This document shows, piece after piece, positions 360 through 61,987 of a DNA stretch of 64,000 nt. The notes under the pieces were generated by a model. The model was not told the DNA's origin. It saw only the letters and a program-made list of their open reading frames with translations, and searched no databases. Within the stretch, counting starts at the first letter, position 1. Every line of letters starts with the position of its first letter. Both the position numbers and the translations under genes were made by a program. This stretch comes from Rufibacter sp. DG15C (GTDB lineage Bacteria > Bacteroidota > Bacteroidia > Cytophagales > Hymenobacteraceae), in contig NZ_CP010776.1 in NCBI RefSeq assembly GCF_001577755.1, positions 434,001-498,000 of the forward strand, read 5' to 3'.

Positions 360-397
360 CGTTTTTGGCTTATTATTGATAAATCAGGTCAAAAGTG
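360..397. repeat. 38-nt palindrome, copy 1 (decayed)
   Basis: The left arm CGTTTTTGGCTTATTAT differs from the family consensus at three positions and the right arm at four. It lies just after the stop of the cut membrane gene and 34 nt before the Nudix gene. Confidence 0.6.
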
Positions 398-431
398 CTT
401 TACAACTTATAATTCATTAAACTTCTTTCCC

Positions 432-1001
432 TTGAAGCCAGAACATTCTTTAGAAAACCCTTGGACGACGTTAGAGTCAACACATATATATAATAACCCT
501 TGGATTAGTGTCAGAGAGGATAAAGTACTCAATCCAAATGGAGGAAAAGGCATTTATGGCATCGTCACAATGCGTAATAAAGCCATTGGAATTATTCCGA
601 TTGATGAGAATGGCAATACTTGGCTTGTTGGTCAATATAGATACGCATTAAATGAGTACTCTTGGGAGATTCCTATGGGGGGCGGTCCAATTGAACTGGA
701 CGTATTGGAATCTGCGCAACGCGAACTTAAGGAAGAAACTGGCTTAACCGCCATGACTTGGACTAGAATTGGCAGGGTACATACCTCTAATTCGGTAACT
801 GACGAAGAGGGCTTTATCTTTATTGCTGAAAACTTAACAATTGGAGAACCTGACTTTGAAGAAACTGAGGACCTCAAAATTTGGATTCTTCCCCTTCGTG
901 AAGCGATAGAAATGGTGATGAACGAGGAAATTACTGATGTCATTTCGGTGGCGGGTTTGCTTAAGGCGGAACGCGTTTTGGCAGCCCGGCAAAACAAATA
1001 A
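432..1001 (+). CDS. Nudix hydrolase, ADP-ribose pyrophosphatase-like
   Basis: This 189-residue protein should hydrolyse a nucleoside diphosphate linked to another moiety, with ADP-ribose or a sugar nucleotide as likely substrates (family inference). The Nudix box lies at about residues 83-105 and ends in RELKEETGL, the metal-binding half. The first conserved Glu of the textbook motif is not at its canonical spacing (GGGPIELD), a variant seen in some subfamilies. The WEIPMGGG lead-in resembles ADP-ribose pyrophosphatases. No ATG is available at this end; the start is TTG at 432. The gene is visibly more AT-rich than its neighbours and is bracketed by palindrome copies at 360 and 1041, so it looks like an accessory insertion. 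Confidence 0.85.
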   Translation: MKPEHSLENPWTTLESTHIYNNPWISVREDKVLNPNGGKGIYGIVTMRNKAIGIIPIDENGNTWLVGQYRYALNEYSWEIPMGGGPIELDVLESAQRELKEETGLTAMTWTRIGRVHTSNSVTDEEGFIFIAENLTIGEPDFEETEDLKIWILPLREAIEMVMNEEITDVISVAGLLKAERVLAARQNK

Positions 1002-1040
1002 TTTACTTGGTTTAGCACTAATTCTGAGAACGGGCTGTTT

Positions 1041-1078
1041 CGTTTTCGACCTGATTCCTAGAAAACAGGCCAAAAACG
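1041..1078. repeat. 38-nt palindrome, copy 2
   Basis: The right arm matches the consensus exactly and the left arm has four changes; the loop is CTAG. It lies between the Nudix gene and plsC. Confidence 0.85.
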
Positions 1079-1119
1079 GCCGATGGAAACAGAGTGCGTG
1101 GTAAGTTTTAAATTATTTG

Positions 1120-1127
1120 TAATTTTG
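1120..1127 (+). promoter_or_regulatory. Possible -7 box TAATTTTG upstream of plsC
   Basis: The octamer matches the Bacteroidota -7 consensus TAnnTTTG. It ends only 5 nt before the plsC ATG, so a transcript from it would be leaderless or nearly so. No good TTTG -33 box is seen at the right spacing, so this is weak. Confidence 0.3.
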
Positions 1128-59643: not shown

Positions 59644-59654
59644 ATAGGACCAGA

Positions 59655-59699
59655 AAAAAAGCGACGGCTTCCTGTTTTGCAGGAAGCCGTCGCTTTTTT
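59655..59699. terminator. Strong bidirectional terminator
   Basis: AAAAAAGCGACGGCTTCCTG pairs perfectly with its complement around loop TTTTG, with A and T runs at the ends. It separates two convergent glycosidase genes, GHL10 and GH97. Confidence 0.93.
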
Positions 59700-59718
59700 G
59701 ATTACTCTGAATTAGAGA

Positions 59719-61848
59719 TTATAGCTTCTTTAAACTTTTCATCTCAGAGTTGTTGCCTTCTTTCACACTCACGGCAATACCACCGCTTGAGGCCAATCCC
59801 TGCTTTAAGATGCTCTTAGAGTTCACCTTCACTTTGCGCACGGTGTAGCTCTGTGGCTTTTTGTCATAGCTGGCATCTGGGCCATCGGCGTAGATAGTAG
59901 CTATATAGTCTTTCCCTTTAGGCAAGAAGCTGAAGGAAATGTTGGCCGTGCGCTTGTTCTCATCCGTGATGCCACCAATGTACCATTCGTTTTTGCCTTT
60001 GGCTTTACGGGCAGTAGTGATGTAATCTCCAGGTTCAGCCTCCAGCACATAGGTATCATCCCAATCCACGGCCACGTCTTTAATGAACTGGAATGCGTCT
60101 GGGAATTTGGCGTAGTTTTCAGGCATGTCGGCGGCCATTTGCAGCGGGCTGTACATGGTCACGTAATACGCCAGTTGCTTCACCAGCGTGGTGTTGACGC
60201 GGTTGCCGTGCCCATAAACCGTAAGGTCTGTCTGGAAGATACCCGGCGTGAAGTCCATAGGCCCGCCCATTAAGCGGGTGAACGGCAGAATGGTAGTATG
60301 TTCAGGAGCTAAGCCGCCCATGGCCTCAAACTCGGTGCCGCGGGCAGATTCCTGGGCAATCCAGTTAGGGAACGTACGGTTCAAACCGGTAGGACGAACG
60401 GCCTCGTGGCTGTTGACCATAATCTTGTAGTCAGCGGCGGTCTTGGCTACGTGAATGTAGTGGTTCACCATCCATTGGCCGTCATGGTGCTCACCGCGCG
60501 GAATGATAGAACCTACGTAGCCGGTCTTCACAGCATTATAACCATTGTCTACCATGAACTGGAAGGCTTTGTCCAAGCGACGCTCATAGTTGGTAGCCGA
60601 CGAAGACGTTTCATGGTGCATCATGATTTTCACGCCTTTAGAAGCCGCATAGGCCTGCAATTCTTTCACGTTAAAATCTGGGTACGGCGTCACAAAGTCA
60701 AACACTTCTTCTTTCCAGTTGCCAAACCAGTCATCCCAGCCAATGTTCCAGCCTTCTACCAACACCGCGTCAAATCCATGCTCGGCGGCAAAATCAATGT
60801 GACGCTTTACGTTTTCGTTGTTGGCACCGTGCCGGCCGTTGGGCTTGTATTTAGTAAAGTCATCGGTGAGTTTGGTGTTGTTCTCAGTGCTGTAACCCCA
60901 CGAAGACTTGCCGGCCACAAAATATTCCCACCACACGCCAATGTACTTAACCGGCTTAATCCAGGACACGTCCTGATACTTGGTAGGCTCGTTGAGATTT
61001 AAAATCAGCTTTGAGGTTAAGATGTTGGCTGCCTTGTCACTCACCACAATGGTCCGCCACGGCGAGGTGGCATTGGTCTGAATGTAGCCTTTGTTGCCCA
61101 CTGCGTCTGGCGTCAGGTGCGCGCTCATTTTCAGGTTCTGCGCATCTACGTTCAAGTGCATGGCCGGATAGTTGATCAAGGCCGCCTCATGGATGTTGAT
61201 ATACAGCCCGTCAGTGGACTTCATCATGGAAGGCGTCTGTACACTTGGGTTCTTGATAGGCGATTGCGCCGAAATCTGGATGGTGGCTTTCTTCTGAAGG
61301 CTTGGGATCTCAGAGACTTTGGACGTGGTGTAGGTGTACTCGTTGGTGTCATAGTCCCCCGGCATCCAGAAAATCTTGTGGTCACCCGCCAAAGCAAACT
61401 CGGTGCGTTCTTCCTTGATCACAAAGTAATTCAGCTCCTTCTGCTTCGGGAATTCATACCTGAAGCCAAGGCCGTCATTGAACACTCTAAACCGGAGCTT
61501 GATGAAACGGTCCTTCTTCCCTTTCTGGGTTAAGGTTACCAGCAGCTCGTTGTAGTTGTTCCGGATGGTTTTCTGCTCGCCTAGGATGGGGTCCCAGGTC
61601 TCATTCACAGATTTCTGCTCGGTGTTGGTTACGGTAAAACCATCCAGCAAAGATGCATTGTTCACCAATTCAAGGCCGAGGCGGCTGGTTTTGATGACTG
61701 GCTTGTTTTTGTAACTGAGTTGGTAGTACGGCACGCCGTTCTGCACTTCAAAGGAGAAGTTTAGATTTTTGTCGGGGGAGGTGAGGGTTTGCGCTTGGGT
61801 GGCCAGCGTGACAAACAGCAGGCACAGCGAAAGGAAAATTTTCTGCAT
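59719..61848 (-). CDS. Glycoside hydrolase family 97, alpha-glucosidase (SusB-like)
   Basis: Started at ATG 61848 the 709-residue protein has a signal peptide ([16 protein letters not shown]). It has the GH97 N-terminal beta domain, TIM barrel and C-terminal beta domain. Glu-bearing motifs [22 protein letters not shown] and ARGTEFEA resemble those of the inverting alpha-glucosidase subgroup such as SusB, so it probably cleaves alpha-glucosides from starch. No SusC/SusD pair is near. A longer start at 61884 is unlikely. Confidence 0.92.
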
Positions 61849-61949
61849 AGTGGGATGGTTTAGAGACCAATAAAGCCTAGCCAAGAGAACGTTGTCTAGA
61901 ATTACTTCTTAAAGATGGCATCTTTCCGGCTATCTAGGAAATCGATTTC

Positions 61950-61987
61950 CTAAATTCGGCTATTTTCTGGAAAACAGGCCAAAAACG
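61950..61987. repeat. 38-nt palindrome, copy 29 (left arm decayed)
   Basis: The right arm is exact; the left arm is CTAAATTCGGCTATTTT. It lies between the GH97 and saccharopine dehydrogenase-like genes on the minus strand. Confidence 0.75.

Follow-up and report, generated by a model that had tools for sequence, protein, structure and literature searches.

A 38-bp symmetric site at gene boundaries of Rufibacter, a candidate genus-specific boundary element

Introduction

BIMEs are composite arrays of REP sequences, and the BIME/gyrase sites of enterobacteria lie between convergent genes and where units have their 3′ ends. The Rufibacter sites described here share this placement, but unlike BIMEs they are single, uniform and symmetric. 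CGTC-tagged REPs are described in one study as occurring in Bacteroidetes, apparently without a dedicated transposase, and the roles suggested there for REP/CGTC palindromes are in supercoiling, termination and mRNA stability (PMC3733652). The DNA uptake sequences (DUS) of Neisseriaceae, according to another study, are present in thousand-fold copies, have species dialects and form inverted pairs tied to terminators (PMC3630211). In the literature searched, no described counterpart of the system proposed below was found.

Anatomy and Copy Number of the Site

The DNA analyzed (the window) is a 64-kb stretch of the genome of Rufibacter sp. DG15C (G000), in which 30 copies of a 38-bp palindrome were found at a threshold of at least 22 of 34 arm matches. 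The copies score 25–34 of 34, whereas among five order-2 Markov shuffles of the window the best score was 22 in a single case and at most 21 in the others. The original prediction had counted 29 copies; their existence is borne out and the number becomes 30. The copies, none of which has a strand, are listed with their arm matches and, where applicable, their presence in the relative G013.

360..397: site, 27/34; present in G013
1041..1078: site, 30/34; present in G013
7745..7782: site, 31/34; present in G013
8988..9025: site, 30/34; present in G013
10419..10456: site, CGTTTTTG overlapping the end of hairpin 10379-10426, 27/34
11797..11834: site, 30/34
14056..14093: site, 26/34
15232..15269: site overlapping an ATG start (ORF 14193-15242) and a stop (ORF 15267-17813), 27/34; present in G013
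20002..20039: site, stem extended 6 bp into the flanks, 30/34
20625..20662: site, perfect stem extended 15 bp on each side, 34/34
24748..24785: site, 29/34; present in G013
25211..25248: site, 30/34
27559..27596: site, 29/34; present in G013
28760..28797: site adjoining hairpin 28796-28831, 26/34
28847..28884: site, 32/34
34369..34406: site 63 nt past the stop of small ORF 34078-34305, 30/34
36124..36161: site, perfect stem extended 10 bp, 32/34
37371..37408: site in a short divergent gap, 29/34
39391..39428: site overlapping the TTG start of ORF 39395-39907, 26/34
40722..40759: match within ORF 40691-42823, may be coincidental, 29/34
42856..42893: site, stem extended 7 bp into the flanks, 30/34
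45753..45790: site, 25/34; present in G013
46788..46825: site, 29/34; present in G013
50750..50787: site straight after hairpin 50712-50754, 27/34
52721..52758: site, 33/34; present in G013
53915..53952: site, 32/34
55595..55632: site, stem extended 6 bp into the flanks, 31/34
56319..56356: site, 28/34; present in G013
57138..57175: site, 27/34
61950..61987: site, 27/34

Each site takes up 38 bp and is composed of four YGTTT-like boxes that follow one another every 11 bp, the first two forward and the last two reverse. The geometry of two 17-nt arms around 4 nt, as first proposed, is retained, because the spacer between facing half-sites is exactly 4 nt in 176/190 pairs from a 464-kb sample of G000; the same holds for 159/168 pairs in G006, 151/155 in G005 and 86/86 in G012. 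The central 4 nt, first described as a loop, read C-Y-R-G and are symmetric as well, and the palindrome therefore continues through its own centre. Mismatches between the arms are frequent (mean 4.1 of 17).

Across the whole genome of G000, 669 places match with at most 3 mismatches, compared with none in the reversed control, and extrapolation gives approximately 1,650 copies. All 20 sampled stretches of this genome contain copies, and a copy-free zone at 0.57–3.0 Mb is ruled out by this even sampling of the chromosome. No Rfam match reached its gathering score; the weaker ones, for the most part of miRNA models to the hairpins, were taken as artefacts. A 1-kb gap near dnaA was considered as oriC and rejected, with no TTWTNCACA match there.

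Distribution, Dialects and Conservation of Positions

Four-box matches number 501–2,172 in 15 of the 16 Rufibacter genomes; the remaining genome has 63 and uses a different dialect. With the same pattern, 188 other genomes of the family gave 0–8 places, against 0–6 in controls. One place in another family genome, G035, resembles a true copy. No prominent related dyad was seen in 400 kb, of which approximately 68 kb is intergenic, sampled from one genome in each of five other genera of Hymenobacteraceae. The original prediction was to be given up if the motif proved to occur at chance frequency or in the window only; the controlled genome-wide search and the related genomes place it genome-wide and genus-wide, and it therefore escapes this objection.

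The letters of the site differ among species while the 38-bp frame is constant. The dialect of R. immobilis differs from that of CGTTTTTGGCC-type species, and the version in G008 is weak and carries little information. Despite such shifts of the consensus, the occupancy of gaps is conserved: in a gap-level comparison with 15 relatives, which covered gaps of at least 60 bp whose neighbouring genes were present and in unchanged order, both gaps were occupied in 41 cases and both empty in 81, with 9 and 13 discordant cases. In one close relative, G013, all 21 alignable copies of the window are present, and 9 of the 30 are not alignable. At 12 gapless orthologous sites, drawn from these 21 alignable among 30, the substitution rate between G000 and G013 is 0.014 where the site is near-invariant, 0.192 at its remaining positions and 0.242 in the flanks.

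These observations bear on mobility, the first of three readings offered originally. Spelled out further here, the palindrome would be a REP-like miniature element spread into intergenic DNA by RAYT or another transposase. The site is palindromic, within 20–40 bp, of high copy number and extragenic, as are REP/CGTC palindromes (PMC3733652), and Y1_Tnp matches occur in 15 of the 16 genus genomes. However, G000 is among the denser genomes and yet has no Y1_Tnp match at the sensitivity of Pfam, which extends the earlier observation of no RAYT-like gene from the window to the whole genome and leaves a RAYT-driven REP unsupported in G000. Because CGTC-tagged REPs apparently have no transposase of their own, the absence of RAYT is in itself compatible with the CGTC class (PMC3733652). 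Four genomes were examined for a terminal GTAG or CGTC tag, and none has one; their flanks from −6 to +6 are weak and mirror-symmetric. Compared with the REP/CGTC palindromes of that study, the Rufibacter site has no unpaired one-sided tag and no Y1 transposase in its own genome, its halves are independent where the flanks are unpaired, and it occurs about once per gap and at orthologous gaps, where the copies differ in dialect. REP-like mobility is thus highly improbable.

Placement Relative to Genes

The claim that all copies but one lie between genes was nearly right: the match at 40722-40759 is inside an ORF, and those at 39391-39428 and 15232-15269 overlap ORF ends. The long operon at 1133-6503 is free of copies, as had been noticed, because none is found between 1079 and 7744 at the same threshold of at least 22/34. 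Among 189 copies in 464 kb of G000, 175 lie in gaps, 5 at the edges of stretches and 9 within predicted genes, the genes being codon-based predictions made in this analysis rather than annotation.

Convergent, tandem and divergent gaps had been described as alike, whereas their frequencies of occupancy differ: among gaps of at least 60 bp, to which the gap statistics are confined, 72–90% of convergent, 50–63% of tandem and approximately 30% of divergent gaps are occupied. Exceptions are G012, with 59% of divergent gaps occupied, and G008, whose weak model gives 61, 49 and 40% for convergent, tandem and divergent gaps. The small samples of G013, G001 and G009 and the weak model of G008 were left out of the comparison of observed with expected occupancy and of the spacer, flank-stem, terminator-pair and flank-class arm statistics. 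In convergent gaps, 140 sites fill 118 of 144 gaps (expected, 89.7 ± 3.7), and in tandem gaps 363 sites fill 317 of 558 (expected, 267.2 ± 6.5); divergent gaps, with 58 occupied and 53.3 ± 2.6 expected, show no clear departure from chance. Copies are thus mostly present once per gap at gene boundaries, with 3′ ends preferred, and mostly lie soon behind a stop codon, at times adjoining an intrinsic terminator or forming part of one. Confinement to 3′ regions could merely reflect harm in coding and promoter DNA. Small ORFs were considered as the reason for sites in divergent gaps, and an ORF with a positive coding score was found in 1 of 17 such gaps; this test is insensitive because it missed the conserved small ORF 34078-34305.

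The pattern of placement also bears on a role in chromosome architecture, in which the sites would serve a clamp of the ParB/Noc type or some nucleoid-associated protein and would be located at unit ends only as harmless places. A C2-symmetric duplex site spread over the chromosome agrees with this role, and the 16-bp core is similar to the TGTTT...AAACA outline of parS and of the Noc site. Unlike those 16-bp sites, the Rufibacter site has four boxes in 38 bp and is present at well over a thousand places. Moreover, random placing among permitted gaps would not yield one site per gap, and each of the 16 genus genomes encodes a single ParB, which is equally true of the 9 further family genomes that were searched. 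One ParB_N match was found in each of the 16 and no second, Noc-like ParB_N protein, and a Noc-like ParB paralogue as the binder is accordingly rejected. An architectural role is unlikely.

Symmetry and Independence of the Two Halves

If the palindrome acted by folding, its arms would be expected to co-vary. In the 135 of 192 own-genome copies with 0–1 paired flank bases, mismatched arm pairs average 4.59, compared with 4.53 when arms are shuffled between copies (z 0.6). The same test on such copies gave z −1.3 in G006 and z −0.2 in G012, and in G005 fewer pairs than shuffled (z +3.8). For the 17 pairs of arm positions, mutual information is 0.000–0.068, against 0.025 ± 0.022 in other column pairs, and wobble pairs are not favoured. 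When all copies are pooled, arm pairing is weakly in excess in three of the four well-sampled genomes (z −2.7, −5.4, −0.2, −2.7), which is due to the subset with extended stems described below; all-copy tests in two further genomes gave z 0.4 (G013) and z −1.4 (G008).

Half-sites without a partner are close to shuffled controls in number (66 and 61 in G000, 105 and 82 in G006, 49 and 51 in G005, 24 and 19 in G012, respectively). The strict 4-nt spacer and the near-control number of partnerless halves, together with arms that are independent where the flanks are unpaired, are characteristic of a C2-symmetric duplex site. The halves are without asymmetry relative to transcription (p 0.18–0.93), which speaks against a directional element. 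The 38-bp copy looks like a candidate docking site rather than a jumping repeat, and a binding site is the best supported of the three readings offered originally.

A genus-specific mark for natural transformation, with species dialects as in the DUS of Neisseriaceae, would also account for a short sequence with dialects and thousand-fold copies, and the inverted pairs associated with terminators are a further likeness (PMC3630211). Solitary half-sites are, however, hardly above the control. DUS are commonly intragenic (PMC3630211), whereas the Rufibacter site is an obligate 38-bp inverted pair at the ends of gene units that is rarely in genes, with only 9 of 189 copies there. Uptake bias would probably not lead to one copy per gap either, and an uptake signal is quite improbable.

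Terminators and Extended Stems

In one subset of copies, the site is built into a terminator-like stem. Extension of the stem by at least 4 bp into the flanks is found in 46–65% of near-perfect copies, compared with 2–6% of copies with at least 5 mismatched pairs. Copies with at least 4 paired flank bases have arms that co-vary (z −5.5, −7.6, −6.2 and −4.1 in four genomes), and several extended copies resemble terminators in the order A-tract, GC stem, 38-mer, GC stem and T-tract. When terminators over the site centre were left out and distances of −39 to +99 only were kept, the terminator stem ended −2 to +4 nt from the site edge in 21/44 terminator-site pairs of G000 and 19/34 of G006.

This subset, whose non-conserved flanks also pair, and the position mostly 3′ of genes agree with the second original reading, an RNA hairpin, taken here as a 3′-end structure of the transcript for termination or mRNA stability. 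As a general account the hairpin is rejected for copies with 0–1 paired flank bases, of which each genome sample has 54 to 135 and in which no arm pairing beyond column composition is found, and it is retained for the extended-stem subset. In addition, the halves have no directional asymmetry, divergent gaps too hold sites, and a hairpin would need neither an exact spacer nor constraint at positions T4-6, T12 and T15-16. An RNA element is therefore rather unlikely as the explanation of the family.

In tandem gaps of G000, separate terminators occur at 0.26 with a site and 0.28 without, and the frequency of intrinsic terminators in Rufibacter is similar to that in site-free relatives, whose samples are small (10–47 gene ends per class and genome). 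Because these frequencies overlap, the site does not appear to have replaced intrinsic terminators. Where a terminator abuts the site, the polymerase would meet the bound protein before the U-tract, and a benefit for termination is not obvious.

A Possible Boundary Element and Its Meaning

The features above may well, with the case about evenly balanced, reflect a genus-specific boundary element, that is, a C2-symmetric duplex site for a putative protein with a punctuation role. The lack of asymmetry between the halves, the near-chance occupancy of divergent gaps and terminator frequencies like those of site-free relatives weigh against it. We infer that a Rufibacter-specific protein would bind each site, either as a tetramer or as a dimer in which every subunit has two heads, and that the occupied gaps would correspond to boundaries between neighbouring transcription units, usually with one site per boundary. 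The bound protein might then serve as punctuation that blocks or insulates against transcription from one unit into the next, and perhaps also insulates against supercoiling between units. The broader proposal, that a coevolving genus-specific protein marks most transcription-unit boundaries genome-wide as a bidirectional insulator or roadblock, is more tentative.

The novelty lies in anatomy and distribution, not in demonstrated function; whatever that function, no tested family matches the combination of an obligate symmetric site, about one copy per gap and restriction to the genus. The dialects, in which frame and gaps are constant and letters differ, would be a natural experiment on how a single protein and its more than one thousand sites evolve together. 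If the proposal is true, transcription-unit boundaries would be readable from sequence, and bacteria would possess a dedicated layer of boundary elements besides intrinsic and Rho-dependent termination.

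Copy number, consensus and dialects

The window holds 30 copies of the 38-bp palindrome, with scores of 25-34 at a cut-off of at least 22 of 34 arm matches; in five Markov shuffles a score of 22 was reached once, and the other top scores did not exceed 21. The genome of origin (G000) is a single contig of 4.14 Mb, of which the window covers G000:C1:434001-498000; a strict pattern (at most three mismatches) finds 669 forward places in this genome, compared with none in the reversed control. Twenty evenly spaced 20-kb stretches contain 159 copies (2-13 per stretch; at least 23/34), a density that gives about 1,650 when extrapolated to the whole genome, and window and stretches together give 189 copies against one match in a Markov-3 control. 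The stretch L011 (G000:C1:100001-120000), along which GC drops from about 0.5 to 0.31, holds only 2 sites in 20 kb, as if it were a foreign island with few marks.

The G000 consensus is CGTTTTTGGCCTGTTTTCYRGAAAACAGGCCAAAAACG, with near-invariant T4-6, T12 and T15-16 and a symmetry that continues across the centre. The skeleton common to the species consists of four YGTTT-like boxes at positions 1-5, 12-16, 23-27 and 34-38, two forward and two reverse, in steps of 11 bp. A search for this skeleton finds 501-2,172 places in 15 of 16 genus genomes, compared with 0-5 in the reversed control; the exception is G012, with 63 places, whose own site model has TCATTT instead of the second TGTTTT. Species-trained models count 192 sites in 464 kb of G000, 181 in 460 kb of G006, 176 in 420 kb of G005 and 92 in 217 kb of G012. 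The letters between the boxes vary by species, as dialects, and the 38-bp length is constant. In G008 (L121-L130, L064, L070) the trained model is weak and of low information, and the 501 relaxed matches are fewer than in any other genus genome except G012; its site system may be decaying or may have switched dialect.

Conservation in place

In alignments with G013 (HSPs over 1 kb, 79-89% identity), 9 of the 30 window copies lie outside any alignment and all 21 alignable copies are recognisable by eye in the same place, a few with one-base indels. Among 12 gapless pairs, near-invariant positions have a substitution rate of 0.014, other site positions one of 0.192 and the flanks one of 0.242. 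Of 50 comparisons with 15 relatives in which the window gap holds a site, 41 have a site in the relative too; of 94 in which the window gap is empty, 81 are empty there as well. This conservation suggests that the dialects were altered in place.

Three relatives carry another palindromic repeat, TTTGTCACTTTTCTCC...GAGAAAAGTAACCAA, which occurs two times each in two of their 20-kb stretches:
L052, 6139 and 18332, either strand, other palindromic repeat
L055, 1435 and 12717, either strand, other palindromic repeat
L057, 17923, either strand, other palindromic repeat

Duplex site and additional stem

Values for four genomes are given below in the order G000, G006, G005, G012. The spacer between facing half-sites is exactly 4 nt in 176/190, 159/168, 151/155 and 86/86 pairs, and solitary half-sites are barely more frequent than in shuffled controls (66 vs 61, 105 vs 82, 49 vs 51 and 24 vs 19). 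Across the 17 arm pairs of 189 G000 copies, Watson-Crick pairs are about as frequent as column composition would predict. Comparison with arms shuffled between copies, where negative z means more pairing, reveals a weak excess in three of the four genomes (z -2.7, -5.4, -0.2 and -2.7). This excess is carried by copies with at least 4 bp of paired non-conserved flanks (z -5.5, -7.6, -6.2 and -4.1; n=29, 26, 43 and 27), compared with 0.6, -1.3, +3.8 and -0.2 for copies with 0-1 paired flank bases (n=135, 130, 106 and 54). Two layers can therefore be told apart, a duplex site whose halves are independent and, in a subset, a stem: the site is not simply a hairpin, and the added stem is in several cases of terminator type.

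Among intrinsic terminators near a site, the stem ends -2 to +4 nt from the site edge in 21/44, 19/34, 8/22 and 3/10 pairs, and therefore the T-run of the site can act as the U-tract. A pure termination role is opposed by the frequency of intrinsic terminators, about equal in Rufibacter and relatives, and by the site halves, in which no transcription polarity was found. At a convergent gene pair, window positions 28796-28831 form a G+C-rich hairpin (CAGAAGCGGCC...) that looks like a conserved bidirectional terminator; a similar hairpin, often flanked by runs like the site ends, occurs in the syntenic stretch of 15 of 15 relatives listed.

Placement relative to genes

By our own gene calls (gaps of at least 60 bp), a site is present in 37/44, 33/39, 29/40 and 19/21 convergent gaps, 108/172, 91/167, 83/149 and 35/70 tandem gaps, and 17/53, 14/46, 14/45 and 13/22 divergent gaps. 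In tandem gaps of G000, the median distance from stop codon to site start is 25.5 to 61 nt, depending on class. Altogether the 140 sites in convergent gaps are distributed over 118 of 144 such gaps (97 hold one, 20 two and 1 three), compared with 89.7 +/- 3.7 by chance (maximum 101 in 2,000 simulations), and 363 sites occupy 317 of 558 tandem gaps (expected 267.2 +/- 6.5, maximum 290); length-weighted expectations fall below the equal-weight ones. In these two classes the sites are thus spread at about one per gap. In the divergent class, 64 sites occupy 58 of 166 gaps, which is no clear departure from equal-weight chance (53.3 +/- 2.6, maximum 61), and only 2 of 25 divergent gaps under 150 bp have a site. 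A 29/34 match (window 40722-40759) falls in the N-terminal region of an ORF for methylmalonyl-CoA mutase and is kept in G013 with one change.

Taxonomic range and known repeats

The exact 38-mer pattern has 10 loci in the named genome collection, all in Rufibacter (R. immobilis, R. ruber, R. sediminis and one Rufibacter sp.). In 188 other family genomes the four-box skeleton has 0-8 places, compared with 0-6 in controls; one of them, the lone match at G035:C1:218561-218598 (CGTTTTTGGCTTGATTTCCAGAAAACAGGCCAAAAAAT) in another genus, looks like a true copy. No comparable dyad was seen in samples from five other genera, which contain little intergenic sequence.

According to PMC3733652, REPs of the superfamilies described have a GTAG or CGTC tag on one side; RAYTs accompany the GTAG class, and CGTC-class REPs also occur in Bacteroidetes, apparently without a dedicated transposase. 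The Rufibacter site matches REPs, as described there, in size and location but has no one-sided tag, and its own genome lacks a Y1 transposase (no Y1_Tnp match in G000). It resembles the DUS, as described in PMC3630211, in copy number, dialects and terminator association, whereas the DUS is short and commonly intragenic. Among the matches listed in searches of the open-licence literature, the broader ones included, there was no paper on such elements in Rufibacter.

Possible function

Strict spacing, obligate pairing of half-sites and independent halves indicate a duplex-DNA target for a putative symmetric protein; the 11-bp steps between the four boxes suggest two contacts per half on one helix face. 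No binder was found, and only a single ParB_N protein is present in G000, as in the family relatives searched.

The sites in about 30% of divergent gaps argue against a boundary role altogether. One of them, at 34369, begins 63 nt past the stop of a small, conserved ORF missing from the list of ORFs of at least 100 aa; a small-ORF test, which is insensitive, accounted for only 1 of 17 divergent gaps. The ORF (window 34078-34305, plus strand; 75 aa, MSTSYLQYSK...) takes up part of a 1-kb gap between divergent genes, two genes from dnaA. Its reading frame is conserved in the 10 relatives aligned, a DNA match exists in all 14 searched, and a Pfam search gave no match.

The distribution suggests a boundary role for the site, at which the putative bound protein might stop read-through, insulate supercoiling or act in some other way.
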